From positions 1-20,776 of IMG/VR virus record IMGVR_UViG_3300002835_001356: a DNA stretch of 20,776 nucleotides; one strand, written 5' to 3'. Position numbers and translations under genes: made by a program. The notes beneath the pieces were generated by a model. It was not told the DNA's origin. It searched no databases and saw only the letters and a program-made list of their open reading frames with translations. This document shows positions 938 to 12,561 of this stretch, in pieces. This stretch comes from a virus. Each line of letters opens with the position of its first letter. The stretch's first letter is position 1.

Positions 938-2041
938 GTGGCTACTTCTTCTTTTGATGGCTCAGGCTATCAACCTCCTGTATCAAACAGCGGTCTGCCC
1001 AACCCATGGTCAAATAATGCCCAAAAAGCAGCGGCGTGGGACAACTTATCTGCAGACGATCAAAGGTGGATCGGGAAGGGAGATCCAACTGACCAGTTTA
1101 TTCTTGCAAGATCTCCCAGCAGGAAAAAACAAAAAAGCAATACAACGCCGGACAATCGATTTAAAGATCCATTTGCACAGCCTGGTCCCAATAACGGTGT
1201 GCCCGGTACAGGCGGTGCCGGAGATCCTACACAACAACGATTAAATGCAGCTGGATTAAGCCAAGGCGGATTACTGCCCGGGGCTACACTACCAAATCGC
1301 GATACTCCGGTGGCTGTGGCTACACAACGCGGTACAACGTTAGCTCTATTAGAGGACGACTGGCGTGTGAGAATTAGTTTGGCTAATTCATCTAAGTTAT
1401 TTTACAAAAGCAACACAGCCGGTATTCAAGGTGTTTTACGAGGAACCAATGGTGTGGTGTTTCCCTATACCCCTTCAATAAGTGTAGCCCATACTGCTAG
1501 ATACAGCGAACAAAAATTGACTCACTCTAATTATGCGAATTATTACTACGAAGGCAGCGAAGTGCAAGCAATTACTGTACAGGGCGAATTCAGCGTACAA
1601 ACTCCTGAAGAAGGAAAATACCTATTGGCAGCAGTAGCGTTTTTTAGAAGTTGTACAAAAATGTTTTTTGGAAAAACCAATCAACAACCCTTAGCTGGCA
1701 GTCCACCACCTTTGGTTTTTTTAAACGGATACGGCAAATACATTTTTCCAACAGTGCCATGTGTAATTACTTCGTTCCAGCAGACCATGCCCGGTGACGT
1801 TGACTATTTAGAAGTAAGTCATTTCCTTGACGAAGTTGATCCTACAGGTTTTGCGAATGGCTCAGGCAAATTTAAATCAGAGATTGCACTGTTAAATTCT
1901 GCTGTAACCAGAGTACCAACCAATAGCACTTTGAGTGTAACACTACAACCAGTATACAGTAGAAAAACAGTACACGAAGATTTTAACTTGGACAGATTTG
2001 CCAGCGGCGAGTTACTGGTAGGACGAGGAGGGTTTATCTAA
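938..2041 (+). CDS. gp48-like tail-tube initiator / baseplate protein
   Basis: 367 residues from a GTG start with AGGA at 928-931, six bases upstream. Residues 1 to about 130 are rich in Pro, Asn, Gly and Gln and look like a flexible extension. The rest looks like a tail-tube-type beta domain. Pattern similarity to T4 gp48 (364 residues) is visible by eye: VQGEFSVQTPEEGKYLLAAV then FFRS and MFFG near residues 212-245 (T4 TWDLTPRS, then YFNYFSYG), LNGYGKYIFPTVPCVITSFQ near 265-290 (T4 GPCQIQSIRFDKTPNG), and a beta C-terminus near 335-367. gp48 sits on top of the T4 hub and, with gp54, starts tube assembly. Its place just before gp53 fits a baseplate role. Identity is low, so gp54 or another tube-like baseplate protein is possible. 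Its stop overlaps the next start by one base. Confidence 0.55.
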   Translation: MATSSFDGSGYQPPVSNSGLPNPWSNNAQKAAAWDNLSADDQRWIGKGDPTDQFILARSPSRKKQKSNTTPDNRFKDPFAQPGPNNGVPGTGGAGDPTQQRLNAAGLSQGGLLPGATLPNRDTPVAVATQRGTTLALLEDDWRVRISLANSSKLFYKSNTAGIQGVLRGTNGVVFPYTPSISVAHTARYSEQKLTHSNYANYYYEGSEVQAITVQGEFSVQTPEEGKYLLAAVAFFRSCTKMFFGKTNQQPLAGSPPPLVFLNGYGKYIFPTVPCVITSFQQTMPGDVDYLEVSHFLDEVDPTGFANGSGKFKSEIALLNSAVTRVPTNSTLSVTLQPVYSRKTVHEDFNLDRFASGELLVGRGGFI

Positions 2042-2343
2042 TGGCAGTAGAATATTCAAAAACAAGTCCCTATTTTGCAACTACACTTTACGGACAATTT
2101 TTAGATATAATTAACTTTAGACAAATATCTAAATTATCTGATGATGTGTACTACGAAATAGACAAGATTTACAGCAACAGACCTGATCTATTGGCATTTG
2201 ACCTATACGGTGATGCCAACTTATGGTGGGTGTTTGCGGCGAGAAATCCAAACGTAATTAGAGATCCTATTTTTGATTTTCTTCCGGGAGTTAGAATTTA
2301 TATTCCAAAAAAAACTACAATTGATCGAGATCTTGGTTTATAA
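2041..2343 (+). CDS. 53: Baseplate wedge protein gp53
   Basis: 100 residues covering the conserved gp53 domain: a YG(x)FLDIINFRQ start, RPDLLAFDLYG (residues 47-57), LWW at 61-63, RNPN, then PG at 82-83 and a closing YIP near 87-89. T4 gp53 is about 196 residues, so this is the compact form. In T4 it is the last wedge component added and lets wedges join around the hub. The start is supported by GAGGAGGG at 2025-2032 with an 8-base spacer, and its ATG overlaps the upstream TAA (TAATG), so translation is probably coupled. Confidence 0.9.
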   Translation: MAVEYSKTSPYFATTLYGQFLDIINFRQISKLSDDVYYEIDKIYSNRPDLLAFDLYGDANLWWVFAARNPNVIRDPIFDFLPGVRIYIPKKTTIDRDLGL

Positions 2344-5982: not shown

Positions 5983-8751
5983 ATGACACTCAACACAAGA
6001 TTAGTAAACAAAATTCCTAACTGGGCAAACAGAGACAGTACGCCTGGCGTTAAATTTGATACCGCTGTTATGGTCGGTATCGTAAAAAATAATCTTGACC
6101 CGGCCAGAACAGGAAGGCTTCAATTATTTGTTCCGGACTTAGGTGGTAACGAGGATGATCCTTCAAATTGGAGAACTTGTAACTACGCCAGTCCTTTCTT
6201 TGGAACAACATATAATCCAAATCAAGGACAAAATAACACCTTTACAGATACCCTGCATTCGTACGGAATGTGGATGGTACCACCAGATTTAGGCAATCAA
6301 GTTTTAGTTGTATTCGCCAACGGCGACCCGGATAGGGGCTATTGGTTTGCCTGCGTACACTCAAATATCGTTAGTCATTTCATGGTACCGGCCACATCCG
6401 CAGGAAATGCTGTAGACAGGACCACCGCGGCCAGCGATCTGCAAGGTACAATTAGTGAAGCTAGTTCTGTTCCTGTGGCAGAATTCAATGAAAGTGTAAA
6501 TGGTAGTATCAATGCAAATTTTATCAACAATCCCAAGCCAGTTCACGAATATCAATATAGAAGATTTCTTCAGCAGGGGCTTGATAAAGATAGAGTTCGT
6601 GGTGCTATAACATCAAGCAGTCAACGTGAAAGTCCTAGCACAGTTTTTGGCATTAGCACTCCGGGTAGATTTTTAGAAGGAGTAGAAGAAGCATTTCTAC
6701 AAAAAATTGAAGCAGGCACAGTGACTGAAACTGACTTTCCTAGCGGACCCAGACGCGGTGGTCACAGTCTTGTTATGGACGATGGCGATATTGCCGGGGT
6801 AGATAATTTAATTAGACTACGCAGTTCTGCAGGTCATCAAATTATAATGAATGACACAGAACGTGTCATGTATATTTCAAACAGCGAAGGCAGTGTATGG
6901 CTCGAATTTGCAGAAAACGGACAGATGCATGTATTTTCGGCCGGCGGCCTGAATATTAGAACGCAAGGAGATATGAATCTTCACAGCGATAAAAATATCA
7001 ATATCAATGCAGAAGGCAAGCTGAACATTACCGGTGTTGAAGCTATTAACATGGAAACCAATACGCTCAATTCCAGATCACTAGGTAAAACAACAATATA
7101 TGGAGCAGGAGTAAATGTAGGCAGCAGTGGCGATTTAAATTTATATGCCAGTCAAACAGGAAATTTTAAAGCAGGTACCTTGGCCTGTGTGGGTGGGCAG
7201 ATATTACTTAACAGCGGCGGTGGTGCAGTTGTAAATGAACCCGCTAAGTTAAATGTTTATACACATGCCGAGGCCAGTCTATCTGGCTTGGCTTGGCAGA
7301 GTGTGCCTAACTCGCTGGATAGTATTTGTACGGCGCTACCCACACACGAGCCCTGGAACAGACTCACAGGTGTAAACAGAGAAACTGGAGAAGCAGCAGG
7401 CGATGAAGGATCCGGAGTAATAGGACCCGGTAACGTCAATGCAGGACAAGCGCCAACACAAACAATTGCTCCAGTGGTTTGCGAACCCAAAGGTCCAGTT
7501 AAAAAAGACGCCAATGGCAATGTAGTCACCGACGGTAAAGGACAACCAGTACGAGCCAGTGCCGCAGAGACCGATCCTGGTCCCAAACAAGCAGCATCAC
7601 AGCCAGTCACTTTACCAATGCCCAGAGAATGGTTAAGTAAGCCCGATGTGCCCAATCCTCCAGGGGGCATAGGAACTTTAACTCAATATCAAGTTAAGTG
7701 TGTAATGGCACAAATGGCGTATAGTGAAAGCAAATTTAACTATGCAGCTAGAGACAGATCAACAGGGAATAGTCTAGGCCGATATTTAATTACAGCCAGA
7801 GATTTTGTAGATTTAAAGTATATTAAACAAGATTACTATCAACAATACCAAGCTGCTGCTGTTAAACAACCAGATGCATGGTTGGGTAAAGAAAATGTTA
7901 AAACAGATTCTGAATTTTTAAACAACAAAGCCTCCCAAGAAAGTGCAATGTACGAACTATTGGGTATAAACTACAATTTATTAACTAAAAAAATAGACGG
8001 GCAACAGGGAATAAAAGGCGACGATGATTTATGTACCGTGGCCGGAATGTTGTGTGTTGCACACTTATTAGGAGCAGCTGGTGCAAGAAAATGGAGGTAT
8101 AGTGCAGCAGGAGAACTAAACGGGTCAACAGGAGCTGTTTACTTTAATCGCGGTAGATACGCCATTGATGTGCTATCAAATGGCAATCAGACCACTGCAC
8201 CAGGGGGAGCAAGTAGTGCAGGACCAATCTCTAGAGTAGACGGATTGGGAATGACCCAAGCGGCCAAGGATGCAGCAGCAATGAATTTAAATCCCGATGA
8301 TTATTTTAACTTCATGCGCGGGGGAACAGGCAGCGGATCCAAGGAAAGATTCTTGCAAACACAGGAAGCATTTAGAGCTGCAATTACCGGAGCAGCCATG
8401 GAGTATAAAAAGGCAACTGGTAGAAAACTAACTGTAAACAGTACCATTCGAACTGCAGAAGATCAATTAAAGCTTTACAATGCATGGAGAGAAGCCGGAG
8501 GAAAATATCCAAGAGAAGGCGGTCCTCCTACAGTCAATACGCCAGGATTTGGACGTTTAAGTATTCCTACCCAGGGAGGAAATACAGGACAGCATGGTCG
8601 TGGACTAGCTATTGACCTACAACCCAACGAAGTTGACAAATTGATTCAGCTGGGACTAGTTGAAAAATATGGATTACAGTTCTTGGGACCAGTTGATCCT
8701 CCGCACTTGCAATATCCTCTATCTCGCACACCACCGCCTAAAAAAGGTTAA
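5983..8751 (+). CDS. 5: gp5-like baseplate hub spike with tail lysozyme and M15 peptidase domains
   Basis: 922 residues (T4 gp5: 575). Order: an OB-fold N-terminus at about 22-135 (KFDTAVMVGIVKNNLDPART, GRLQLFVPDLGG, QVLVVFANGDPDRGYW); a beta-helix needle at about 261-415 with short alternating repeats (MNLHSDKNININAEGKLNI); a Gly/Pro/Gln-rich linker to 545; a lytic glycosidase/transglycosylase-like domain at about 546-735 with a candidate catalytic Glu582 in MAYSESKFNY, then NSLGRY and GMLCVAHLLGAAGARKWR; and a C-terminal M15 peptidase-like domain at about 780-922 with STIRTAEDQ (Arg823), QHGRGLAIDL (His871, Asp878) and DPPHLQY (Asp905, His908), matching the usual zinc and catalytic residues. 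The trimer should puncture the outer membrane and cut peptidoglycan in the periplasm. In T4 the lysozyme lies between OB fold and needle; here hydrolases follow the needle. A weak GGA at 5972-5974 precedes the ATG. Confidence 0.92.
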   Translation: MTLNTRLVNKIPNWANRDSTPGVKFDTAVMVGIVKNNLDPARTGRLQLFVPDLGGNEDDPSNWRTCNYASPFFGTTYNPNQGQNNTFTDTLHSYGMWMVPPDLGNQVLVVFANGDPDRGYWFACVHSNIVSHFMVPATSAGNAVDRTTAASDLQGTISEASSVPVAEFNESVNGSINANFINNPKPVHEYQYRRFLQQGLDKDRVRGAITSSSQRESPSTVFGISTPGRFLEGVEEAFLQKIEAGTVTETDFPSGPRRGGHSLVMDDGDIAGVDNLIRLRSSAGHQIIMNDTERVMYISNSEGSVWLEFAENGQMHVFSAGGLNIRTQGDMNLHSDKNININAEGKLNITGVEAINMETNTLNSRSLGKTTIYGAGVNVGSSGDLNLYASQTGNFKAGTLACVGGQILLNSGGGAVVNEPAKLNVYTHAEASLSGLAWQSVPNSLDSICTALPTHEPWNRLTGVNRETGEAAGDEGSGVIGPGNVNAGQAPTQTIAPVVCEPKGPVKKDANGNVVTDGKGQPVRASAAETDPGPKQAASQPVTLPMPREWLSKPDVPNPPGGIGTLTQYQVKCVMAQMAYSESKFNYAARDRSTGNSLGRYLITARDFVDLKYIKQDYYQQYQAAAVKQPDAWLGKENVKTDSEFLNNKASQESAMYELLGINYNLLTKKIDGQQGIKGDDDLCTVAGMLCVAHLLGAAGARKWRYSAAGELNGSTGAVYFNRGRYAIDVLSNGNQTTAPGGASSAGPISRVDGLGMTQAAKDAAAMNLNPDDYFNFMRGGTGSGSKERFLQTQEAFRAAITGAAMEYKKATGRKLTVNSTIRTAEDQLKLYNAWREAGGKYPREGGPPTVNTPGFGRLSIPTQGGNTGQHGRGLAIDLQPNEVDKLIQLGLVEKYGLQFLGPVDPPHLQYPLSRTPPPKKG

Positions 8752-8759
8752 ATATTACT

Positions 8760-9140
8760 ATGGCTACAGTATATAAAGGTTTTAGTACATTCAATCGCGA
8801 TAAAAAATTCCGCGTGATAGATTTTGAATTGGTTAAACAAAATCTATATAATCACTTCAACATACGCAAAGGCGAAAAGCTTATGCAACCAAATTTTGGC
8901 AGCAATATTTGGAATATGTTATTTGAGCCACTTACTGAAGAAACTAGACAAATTATTGTAGACGACGTTAGGGCAGTGGCCGGATACGATCCTAGAGTTA
9001 ATGTATCAAATGTATTGGTCACACAATTTGATCACGGCATTCAACTAGTAGTTGAACTATCATATATTCCCAATAATCAACTTGAAACTTTAGTATTAAA
9101 CTTCGATAACAGATCCAGATCTTTGACTCGTAACGAATAA
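8760..9140 (+). CDS. 25: Baseplate wedge protein gp25
   Basis: 126 residues, close to T4 gp25 (132). The GPW/gp25 family signature is clear: RKGEKLMQPNFGSNIW at residues 36-51, then LFEPLTEETRQIIVDDV at 54-70, and a C-terminal beta section LVVELSYI followed by LVLNFD. The usual EPR motif reads EPL here (56-58), so the arginine is replaced. In T4, gp25 joins the gp6-gp7 core bundle of each wedge and touches the sheath. It starts eight bases after the gp5 stop; the only Shine-Dalgarno-like AAGG is rather far away (about 12 bases), so coupling to gp5 translation is likely. Confidence 0.95.
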   Translation: MATVYKGFSTFNRDKKFRVIDFELVKQNLYNHFNIRKGEKLMQPNFGSNIWNMLFEPLTEETRQIIVDDVRAVAGYDPRVNVSNVLVTQFDHGIQLVVELSYIPNNQLETLVLNFDNRSRSLTRNE

Positions 9141-9186: not shown

Positions 9187-12100
9187 ATGGCTATTACTAC
9201 TCGTCAAACAAGTTTATTGGTACAACAAGATTGGAAAACAGTATATCAGACTTTCCGCGAAGCTGACTTTCAAAGTTACGATTTTGAAACGCTACGCAAG
9301 TCAATGATTGACTACATCCGTACCTACTATCCAGAAGATTTTAACGATTTTATTGAAAGCTCAGAATTTGTAGCTTTAATTGATCTTGTTGCCTTTTTGG
9401 GACAGAGTTTAGCGTTTCGAACAGATATCAATGCTAGAGAAAACTTTATTGATACTGCTGAACGTAGAGACAGTATCTTAAAACTAGCTAGACTAATTAG
9501 CTACAACCCTAAAAGAAATATAACCGCGTCGGGCTTGCTCAAATTTGACAGTGTTACTACGACAGAAAATGTTTTTGATTCAAATGGTTTAAACTTATCC
9601 AACTTGGTTATCAGTTGGAATGATAGTACCAACGACATGTGGCAAGAACAATTTACAGCGATTCTTGACGCAGCTTTGGCCAGCAGTCAAATCATTGGAA
9701 AACCCGGTAACAGCCAACCTATTAACGGTATACAAACAGATGAATATTCTATAAATTTAACCACTGGTACTAATCCTGTATTTAGATTTAGCAGTACAGT
9801 AGATGGCGGCGGAATGAATTTTGAAGCAATAAGTGCTACCAGTATCAACCAAACCTATTTGTATGAGCCTGCTCCGGCCACTGGCGGATTCTTTAATTTT
9901 CTATATAGAAACGACAATCTAGGAAATTCGAGCAATAACACTGGATATTTTATACATTTTAAACAGGGTGTTTTAAATTCACAAGATTTTAGCGTGGGCG
10001 ACAGTCTACCTAATCGTGTTGTTAGTATAAATTTTGATAACATTAACAATACAGATGTTTGGCTATACAAATTAAACAGTCAAGGCGACGAAGATTTGTT
10101 ATGGACTCAAGTACCTGCAGTCAGCGGCGTTAACGTAATTTATAACAACACCGAAGAGCGTAACTTATATGAAGTAGCAACTAGAGCCAATGATCAAATT
10201 GATTTAGTATTCGGCGACGGCGCATTTACCAATATACCGCAAGGCGATTTTAGATTATTTTATCGCACCAGCAACGCTTTGACTTACAAAATTACTCCTG
10301 ATGAAATGCAGGATATAGTTATACCTATTACATATCAAAGTAGAACTGGAAGAATCGAAACGCTTACTATTCGTGCAAGTTTAAACTATACAATTGCAAA
10401 CAGTGTTTCTAGAGAATCTCTAGAAGAAATTAGAACCAAGGCACCTCAAAGTTACTACACACAAAACAGAATGATCACCGGTGAAGATTATAATATTTTC
10501 CCTTATGTTCAATTTCCTAGTATATTAAAAGTTAAAGCCACTAATCGTAGTAGTTCTGGTGTAAGTAGATATCTTGATGTATTAGATGTAACAGGAAAAT
10601 ATTCTAGTACAAACATTTTTGCACAAGATGGATGGTTATATAGTCAAGATTTTATTGGTAGTTTTCCTTTTACGTGGGCAAGTACCACTGAAATTAGAGG
10701 AATTATCTATAATAGAATTATACCATTATTAAGTGCTCAGGAGTTGACACATTTATATTATACCAAATATCCACGATACACAGAAACAGACATTCAATGG
10801 ACCAGTACTAGCGCAGCATCGTCGGGCTCTGTGGGATATTTTAACGCAGTAAATTCCGTAACACCTTTGATTGTTGGACCAGAAACAATTAATAATTTAA
10901 AATATGTTACTGTAGGGTCATTGGTCAAGTTCAATGCCGGTGAAGGCAAATATTTTGATGCCCAAAATCAAATTCAAACAGGTTCTCCTTCGATCGAAGG
11001 GGACCGAACATATATCTATGCCGGAGTTATGTTGACCGAAACCACGGTAGTGACACTGAGCACTTTTATACCTGACGGCGCAATACTAGATCAAATTATT
11101 CCAGAATTTAAAAATGCACTCACAGAAACTCTGGTAGACAGTATAAGCGATAACATTAGAACCTACAACAGCTTTGGTTTAAGATACGATGCAACCAATC
11201 AAGCCTGGGCGATTATTGATCAACAGGATTTAAACGGTAGTGACGATCCTTACAATTTTAGTTTAACCAACGCAGGTGATACAAACGGACTAGGACTTGA
11301 TAGCAGTTGGTTGATACGTGTAACTTATAACGGTCTTGATTATAAAGTAAATTATCGCGGGATTAATTATATTTTCGAAAGCGAACTAGAAACAAGATTT
11401 TATTTTGATGAAAGAGTGAAAGTTTACGATACCCGTACCGGACTAACTTTAAATGATCAGATCAAAGTTTTAAAAGTAAACACACAGCCAGACAGTTTGT
11501 TCCCATTGGGAACAGATCAAACATGGTATGTGTATAAAAATATTGTAGAACCTGACGGTTATCAAAGTAGTCGCAGAATTCTAGTAACGTATCCTGACAG
11601 TAACTCCGACGGAGTACCAGACAATCCTGATTTATTTGAGCATATTGTATCACCATCTGTTAACAGTGCATACAAATATGTGTACCTACAGACAATAACA
11701 GATCCTAATAGGTTTATTTTCACAGAGCCGCTGGATAATAGTCTGGTTATCAGCGTGTACAGCACAAAAGCAGATATAGATAGAAATGCAAATTTATTCG
11801 AAAATAATCAATTATTTTATGCAACTGGTGAACGTGTATTTTATCAATTGGTTGTGGTAGGAAATTTAAGAACTACTTCTCTAAGAACTGATCTTACTGC
11901 TTATGTAGGTCGACAGAGACTGTACTTCCAGTATAGACATAATAGTCCTAACTATAGAAGAATTGATCCTAGTCCTAATAACATAATGGATTTATATATT
12001 CTTACAAAACAATATGCCACTGATTATAGTGCCTGGGTAACTGACACTAGCGGAGTGGTTGAAGAACCTACACCACCGACCACGGAATCATTGAAAATAG

Positions 12101-12561
12101 AATATTCTTCATTGGAAAACTTTAAAACATTAAGTGATACCATAGTTTACAATAGCGTACAATTTAAACCCTTGTTTGGAAGCAGAGCCAACCCTGCATT
12201 ACAGGCAAAATTTAAAGTAGTTAAAAATTCCAATGTGGTTATTAGTGATAACGATATAAAAACCAATTTAATTGGTGCTATTAACACTTACTTCGAAATA
12301 GCCAATTGGGATTTTGGAGAAACTTTTTATTTTAGTGAATTGTCAGCATATTTGCACTCTGCGCTATCGCCTAATATAGCCAGCGTGATTATTGTGCCAA
12401 ACGATAGTGCAGTTAGATTTGGTAACCTATATCAAATAAATGCCGAAGCAAACGAAATATTAATAAGTGCAGCAACAGTAGATGATGTTGAAATTATAAG
12501 TGCGATTACCGCCGTACAAATAAATCAAACAATGAGCTTAACTAGCGCAGGAAGTGTTTAA
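9187..12561 (+). CDS. 6: Baseplate wedge protein gp6 (enlarged)
   Basis: 1124 residues against 660 in T4. The N-terminal half is the conserved gp6 of T4-like phages: FIESSEFVALIDLVAFLGQS, NARENFIDTAERRD, LISYNPKR (residues 104-110) and a block ending APQSYYTQNRMITGEDYN (419-436) followed by SRYLDVLDVTGKYS. The C-terminus (about 979-1124) is the J-like part: FKTLSDTIVYNS, NDIKTNLIGAINTYF and WDFGETFYFSELSAYLHSAL. Between them, about 490-975 holds extra beta-rich sequence, including the calcium-loop motif DSNSDGVPD at 804-812. gp6 dimers form the continuous inner ring that holds six wedges together and drives baseplate opening. The start has AGGG at 9176-9179; the stop overlaps the next ATG by one base. 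Confidence 0.94.
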   Translation: MAITTRQTSLLVQQDWKTVYQTFREADFQSYDFETLRKSMIDYIRTYYPEDFNDFIESSEFVALIDLVAFLGQSLAFRTDINARENFIDTAERRDSILKLARLISYNPKRNITASGLLKFDSVTTTENVFDSNGLNLSNLVISWNDSTNDMWQEQFTAILDAALASSQIIGKPGNSQPINGIQTDEYSINLTTGTNPVFRFSSTVDGGGMNFEAISATSINQTYLYEPAPATGGFFNFLYRNDNLGNSSNNTGYFIHFKQGVLNSQDFSVGDSLPNRVVSINFDNINNTDVWLYKLNSQGDEDLLWTQVPAVSGVNVIYNNTEERNLYEVATRANDQIDLVFGDGAFTNIPQGDFRLFYRTSNALTYKITPDEMQDIVIPITYQSRTGRIETLTIRASLNYTIANSVSRESLEEIRTKAPQSYYTQNRMITGEDYNIFPYVQFPSILKVKATNRSSSGVSRYLDVLDVTGKYSSTNIFAQDGWLYSQDFIGSFPFTWASTTEIRGIIYNRIIPLLSAQELTHLYYTKYPRYTETDIQWTSTSAASSGSVGYFNAVNSVTPLIVGPETINNLKYVTVGSLVKFNAGEGKYFDAQNQIQTGSPSIEGDRTYIYAGVMLTETTVVTLSTFIPDGAILDQIIPEFKNALTETLVDSISDNIRTYNSFGLRYDATNQAWAIIDQQDLNGSDDPYNFSLTNAGDTNGLGLDSSWLIRVTYNGLDYKVNYRGINYIFESELETRFYFDERVKVYDTRTGLTLNDQIKVLKVNTQPDSLFPLGTDQTWYVYKNIVEPDGYQSSRRILVTYPDSNSDGVPDNPDLFEHIVSPSVNSAYKYVYLQTITDPNRFIFTEPLDNSLVISVYSTKADIDRNANLFENNQLFYATGERVFYQLVVVGNLRTTSLRTDLTAYVGRQRLYFQYRHNSPNYRRIDPSPNNIMDLYILTKQYATDYSAWVTDTSGVVEEPTPPTTESLKIEYSSLENFKTLSDTIVYNSVQFKPLFGSRANPALQAKFKVVKNSNVVISDNDIKTNLIGAINTYFEIANWDFGETFYFSELSAYLHSALSPNIASVIIVPNDSAVRFGNLYQINAEANEILISAATVDDVEIISAITAVQINQTMSLTSAGSV
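11596..11622 (+). other. Predicted Ca2+-binding loop in gp6 (DxNxDGxxD)
   Basis: Residues D804, N806, D808, G809 and D812 of the gp6-like protein form DSNSDGVPD, followed by NPD. This spacing matches the DxDxDG loops of EF-hand and thrombospondin type 3 repeats. It falls in the expanded middle region, not in the part shared with T4 gp6. Metal binding is inferred from spacing only. Confidence 0.45.

Follow-up and report, generated by a model that had tools for sequence, protein, structure and literature searches.

The central spike protein gp5 of phage T4 consists of an OB fold, a single lysozyme domain (residues 174–339) and a beta-helical needle (residues 389–575), with nothing past the needle, and the T4 spike is capped by a PAAR protein (PMC4576200). 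Enzymes placed beyond the needle have been described for jumbo phages: a beta-helix with a C-terminal lysozyme was reported in 2013 for ORF078 of RaK2 (PMC3622015), and a lysozyme and possibly also a central M23-like domain in 2017 for CBB_240 (PMC5259590). Related devices are the tail hub protein gp15 of Anabaena phage A-1(L), which carries lysozyme, endoglucanase and peptidase domains and whose peptidase and endoglucanase activities have been demonstrated (PMC10966104), and, in type VI secretion systems, evolved VgrG proteins and cargo effectors such as Tae17 of A. baumannii, a transglycosylase plus amidase (PMC11796386).

We analyzed a 20.8 kb virus fragment from IMG/VR (hereafter the window), which encodes a spike of the gp5/VgrG kind. 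Like T4 gp5 this protein combines an OB fold, hydrolase-like domains and a beta-helix, but the strict T4 layout is not present, as no lysozyme was found between the OB fold and the needle of the window spike; instead, a lytic-transglycosylase-fold domain (C1) and an M15 zinc peptidase domain (C2) come after the needle (Table 1). An earlier note on this DNA had contrasted the window spike with the single lysozyme of T4 gp5 located before the needle, which the T4 residue ranges bear out, and had argued that two hydrolases past the needle imply a different spike architecture. Both domains and their position after the needle stand; such an arrangement was, however, already established in RaK2 (PMC3622015) and CBB (PMC5259590).

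The hub proteins of the RaK2/GAP32/CBB type share with the window the OB fold, the needle and two hydrolase domains after it (M23-like plus GH24 lysozyme), but their enzymes are unrelated to those of the window, the needle ends with HxH and not with THEP, and a PAAR gene was not found in these phages. By eye, the M23-like domain of the RaK2 and GAP32 proteins (L092, L096) is without the usual zinc-binding histidines (GAP32 has NRNGW and FEYEIR) and may be inactive. Pairs of a glycan and a peptide hydrolase made up of unrelated enzymes, fused or adjacent, recur in RaK2, GAP32 and Vibrio 2.275 and in XacN1, where an SLT-like domain follows the needle and the gene of an M23 peptidase adjoins. Tae17 likewise brings paired glycan and peptide-side hydrolases to a VgrG spike, but it serves bacterial antagonism, is bound to VgrG non-covalently and has another second enzyme, and in A-1(L) the domains are carried on the hub and not on the spike. 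What is new in the window is the combination of enzymes; the principle was known before.

The spike gene and its neighbourhood

The window contains a baseplate operon of the T4 superfamily with the gene order gp53, gp27-like hub, gp5-like spike, gp25 and gp6; its place and its relatives suggest that the divergent gene at the left end codes for a gp55-like sigma factor. The OB fold, the beta-helix needle and the baseplate neighbours gp53, gp25 and gp6 expected of a gp5/VgrG spike are all present, and residues 25–398 match phrog_13211 'baseplate hub subunit and tail lysozyme' with an E-value of 6e-35. For the needle, the DUF2345 match (residues 309–391, E 0.0016) is below the cut-off, and a profile of 44 relatives compared with the PDB matched gp5/VgrG beta-helices, 9gtr being the best (E 7e-5); phiKZ164 and T4 gp5 (4jiv) were matched as well. 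The open frame of 922 codons is intact, window position 7618 is the start of codon 546, and Glu582, His871, Asp878, Asp905 and His908 are found where the earlier note had placed them. Its label 'tail spike' has to be narrowed: the protein is a gp5-like central spike and not a receptor-binding tailspike.

Identical or related copies of the reading frame are present on independent IMG/VR contigs. The closest cultured spikes are those of the jumbo phages Atu_ph07, PA5oct, RaK2, GAP32 and SCTP-2, and no relatives were found in bacterial or archaeal genome contigs. In our judgement the protein is likely to be the PAAR-capped central spike of a T4-superfamily jumbo myovirus, with tethered transglycosylase-fold and M15 enzymes that would open the peptidoglycan at entry.

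Table 1. Features of the window and of its spike protein
Feature	Residues	Position in window	Strand	Basis
gp53 homologue		2041–2343		Pfam and PHROGs
gp27-like hub protein		2347–5970		gene order and PHROG 'virion structural protein' match
gp5/VgrG-like central spike protein	1–922	5983..8751	+	one open frame; phrog_13211; IMG/VR copies
OB-fold domain	about 25–140	6055..6402	+	PF04717 Phage_base_V, E 1e-8, above curated cut-off
Beta-helix needle	about 301–420	6883..7242	+	DUF2345 and profile matches to PDB helices
THEPW end-of-needle motif	454–458	7342..7356	+	[T/S/A]H[E/Q]P in 79/79 spikes
Gly/Ala/Pro-rich linker	459–545 (87 residues)	7357..7617	+	composition; length varies among relatives
C1, lytic-transglycosylase-fold domain	546–740	7618..8202	+	AlphaFold2 model m83f554816fc4, VIA-align, PF06737 in relatives
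Glu582, predicted catalytic acid of C1	582	7726..7728	+	invariant in 17-row alignment
GRYL, counterpart of G[KR]YQ with Q to L	599–602	7777..7788	+	alignment of 44 C1 domains
Second linker	741–780	8203..8322	+	model confidence low (pLDDT about 30 in first part)
C2, M15 (VanY/Ply500-like) zinc peptidase domain	781–922	8323..8748	+	phrog_2649, PF02557, VIA-align, Foldseek
Predicted zinc ligands His871 and Asp878 (HxxGxAxD)	871, 878	8593..8616	+	no variation among 28 M15 domains
Asp905-x2-His908, predicted catalytic acid and third zinc ligand	905, 908	8695..8706	+	96% conserved in 28 M15 domains
gp25 homologue		8760–9140		Pfam and PHROGs
gp6 homologue		9187–12561		Pfam and PHROGs

The end of the needle

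We collected 79 distinct full-length spikes by similarity to the window, which makes for a biased sample. Of these, 45 are without any of three hydrolase-like domains, 13 have C1, five have C1 and M15, and in the remaining 16 an extra transglycosylase-like domain precedes C1 and M15. Whatever comes next, the motif [T/S/A]H[E/Q]P is located directly past the needle in all 79. In an alignment of 44 sequences the P of the motif is invariant, and H and E are conserved in over 90%. What follows the motif differs: nothing in L050 and in the cultured phages SCTP-2 and PA5oct (the latter with FEP), and in other spikes enzymes, an unknown extension or a tail that looks helical. Spikes of the RaK2 type have HxH at the end of the needle in place of THEP. 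At the spike tips of other phages HxH binds iron. Within the literature searched we found no mention of the THEP motif in phage spikes.

A PAAR protein is encoded in all four complete genomes of the THEP/FEP type (Atu_ph07, Phosso, PA5oct with its FEP variant, and SCTP-2) and was found in none of six genomes of the HxH type (RaK2, GAP32, CBB, 121Q, XaC1 and Vibrio 2.275, the last being near-complete and deposited as partial); T4 served as positive control for this search, and its PAAR protein was found. With ten genomes of uneven relatedness, the association between motif and PAAR protein is suggestive only.

These data bear on the proposal of the earlier note that the needle may not be the tip, in which case the hydrolases would form the leading end of a spike without PAAR cap. 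The chain does run on beyond the needle, and no PAAR gene was found in nine metagenomic fragments of the THEP type (52–199 kb each, incomplete). The presence of the motif in 79/79 spikes together with the co-occurrence of PAAR proteins in the complete genomes makes such an arrangement less likely, and most jumbo myophages possess a standalone PAAR protein (PMC7824862); we consider a leading position of the hydrolases unlikely. Judged from the motif and the gene content, a PAAR protein probably still forms the tip of the needle, and a linker of about 85 residues would tether the hydrolases to the needle.

The lytic-transglycosylase-fold domain C1

Sequence searches with C1 mostly gave weak results. 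The domain of the window alone has no Pfam match, a single-sequence search of the PDB with residues 546–922 and a comparison of the C1 profile with PDB sequences returned chance matches only, and NCBIfam gave nothing for C1 or C2; the transglycosylase-like family PF06737 was matched in 5 of 17 relatives (best 2.4e-4). The assignment therefore needed a comparison of folds. An AlphaFold2 model for which 20 relatives were used has high confidence across most of the domain, with blocks mostly at pLDDT 85–98, and VIA-align superimposed it best on Cj0843 (Z 11.7, rmsd 3.1 over 141 residues), further matches being MltC (Z 11.2), MltE (11.0), phiKZ gp144 (9.4) and goose lysozyme (8.4), as well as MltF and Slt. 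All leading structural matches are lytic transglycosylases. In PHROGs C1 matches phrog_27932 'hub + tail lysozyme' at 7e-16.

Glu582-Ser583 corresponds to the conserved ES of the C1 relatives and to the catalytic Glu-Ser of lytic transglycosylases. A GLMQ-like motif as in family-1 lytic transglycosylases is not present: at this place G[KR]YQ is found in nearly every relative, and GRYL in the window. C1 has the fold and the catalytic Glu and is not filed as a full member of the family-1 lytic transglycosylases or of the goose-lysozyme superfamily. With GRYL instead of G[KR]YQ the activity of C1 in the window could be reduced.

A homologous C1 (profile E-values of 3e-41 to 7e-47) is found in the hub/tail lysozymes of the Pootjesviridae OLIVR5, phiM9, P10VF and Atu_ph04 and in the related ORM_20 (L097–L101). 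In contrast to the window, C1 is located before the needle in these proteins, no M15 domain was seen and there is no THEP motif; no PAAR protein was found in three genomes of this group that were searched. The side of the needle on which C1 is placed has thus been interchangeable in evolution.

The spikes with three hydrolase-like domains after the needle (L011, L012, L013, L019, L114, L120, L121, L125, L128, L131, L132, L134 and others) allow a comparison of C1 with and without a second transglycosylase. The model of the extra domain matches the phage lytic transglycosylase 9udh (Z 18.6, 35% identity), and the glutamate of its ETG motif is invariant in every row covering it. Where the extra domain is present, the Glu of C1 is kept in 11 of 18 sequences, has given way to I, L or V in six and is not covered in one, whereas it is kept in 20/20 sequences without the extra domain (Fisher p 0.0025 when the uncovered row is counted as a loss, a value that overstates independence, since the tree is compatible with a single loss followed by drift). 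I, L or V is found at this site in three more sequences as well, which are partial and lack their start. The Q of GKYQ is lost as well in spikes that have lost the Glu. The replacements were seen in L111, L113, L121, L122, L131, L132, L134, L140 and L141, and the extra transglycosylase is there wherever the upstream part is present. As the Glu is lost only in the company of a second transglycosylase, the pattern supports Glu582 as the predicted catalytic residue of C1, dispensable only when duplicated.

Few nonsynonymous changes are observed in C1 and C2 despite saturated synonymous sites, which points to purifying selection on both domains; between the window and L002, pN is 0.19 for C1 and 0.067 for the M15 domain against a pS of 0.79. 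Due to the saturation, dN/dS is not given for most comparisons.

C1 of the window might have become a peptidoglycan-binding domain that is no longer an enzyme, leaving the cutting to M15 alone. GRYL in place of the conserved motif and the decaying C1 active site of some relatives with a second transglycosylase would fit this reading. The window spike, however, lacks a second transglycosylase that could stand in for C1, it retains Glu582-Ser583, and its C1 is under purifying selection, so that we regard a mere binding function as rather improbable.

The M15 peptidase domain C2

C2 matches the endolysin family phrog_2649 (E 1.2e-8). VanY (PF02557) was matched in 7/7 family members (best 2.9e-7), the window's own row reaching E 0.048 and 13.9 bits against a curated cut-off of 25. 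The C2 profile matched Ply500 (2vo9, E 0.009), VIA-align gave Ply500 (Z 8.2 over 120 residues) and LysB4 (Z 8.1), and Foldseek gave VanXYc with a probability of 0.99. The Ply500 and LysB4 endolysins have the fold and the catalytic residues of C2, but they are lysis enzymes and not parts of virion spikes. Ply500 is named L-alanyl-D-glutamate peptidase in the PDB, and our best guess from the fold match with Ply500 and LysB4 is that C2 would cleave a bond of the L-Ala-D-Glu type.

The sole exception to DxxH among the 28 M15 domains is L131, which is without that stretch. An apparent loss of Asp905 in L011–L013 turned out to be an alignment gap, DxxH being retained. A related M15 domain is also located near the end of a 1021-residue protein without spike domains (L133, L135, L136).

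The window's own sequence is below the Pfam cut-offs for both enzymes, and the assignments therefore lean on the relatives and on the model. The earlier note had predicted a glycosidase/transglycosylase-like domain around Glu582 and an M15-type zinc peptidase with His871, Asp878, Asp905 and His908, and had set as its refutation the failure to find a lysozyme or transglycosylase match for residues 546–735 or an M15 match for residues 780–922. When this was put to the test, both stretches matched, and computation establishes the two domains with their folds, their order and their conserved catalytic residues.

Linkers and exchangeable cargo

The cargo after the needle is exchangeable among the related spikes also beyond the hydrolases described above. 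The spikes of Atu_ph07 (L090 5258–6511, PF13365 E 1.7e-17) and Phosso (L093 6302–7048, PF13365 E 2.5e-10) end with a trypsin-like peptidase domain after the needle, preceded in Phosso by a very long Gly-rich linker. In 18 representatives (L042, L048, L061, L070, L082, L089 and others) the spike has a C-terminal extension of 166–527 residues with a recurring NRxS...QYQAD; three of these extensions were tested and gave no convincing Pfam match.

The C-terminal part could also be cleaved off in the linker at maturation, the hydrolases then being absent from the virion or associated non-covalently. T4 gp5 is itself cleaved (Kanamaru 1999, as cited in PMC4576200), and the linker of the C1 plus M15 class is partly conserved. 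Across the classes, however, the linkers vary in length and sequence and no cleavage motif common to all of them was seen. The fusion protein of CBB was detected in virions at a coverage of 4% only (PMC5259590), which is uninformative in either direction. On balance we hold cleavage in the linker to be very unlikely. Nothing was found in favour of an assembly artefact behind the fusion or of similarity by chance; both are refuted by the same domain order on independent contigs from many samples and by purifying selection across both domains, and have virtually no probability left.

Proposed mode of action

Returning to the PAAR-capped spike with tethered enzymes, we infer a trimer, the PAAR cap, enzymatic activity, bond specificity and a role in entry. 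Upon tail contraction, three copies of the spike protein would be pushed through the outer membrane with the needle in front. This needle would end at THEPW and would probably be capped by a separate PAAR protein encoded elsewhere. Past the needle each chain would continue with the flexible first linker, the lytic-transglycosylase-fold domain, the second linker and the M15 peptidase. The six tethered enzymes could then cut glycan strands and stem peptides and thereby open the peptidoglycan around the entry site.

With about even confidence we see in these spikes the phage counterpart of an 'evolved VgrG', in which the end that docks PAAR (THEP) is conserved and the slot after it takes different cargo from phage to phage: none at all, a lone transglycosylase, a transglycosylase together with an M15 peptidase, a set of three wall hydrolases, or a trypsin-like protease. 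In this view redundant enzymes decay in place. Wall-cutting parts are exchanged at the end of the needle among related phages, being added in some and dropped in others, and the window is a new arrangement of a known kind of device. Our results indicate that in a large uncultured group of giant phages the piercing spike serves as a modular carrier for enzymes that cut the wall, with up to three per chain. The THEP motif is a sequence landmark that divides the conserved spike from the exchangeable cargo; with it, two matters become accessible to testing: the position that the hydrolases take up with respect to the tip of the needle while the phage enters, and the way in which phages on the one side and type VI secretion systems on the other arrived at loading enzymes onto a common type of spike.
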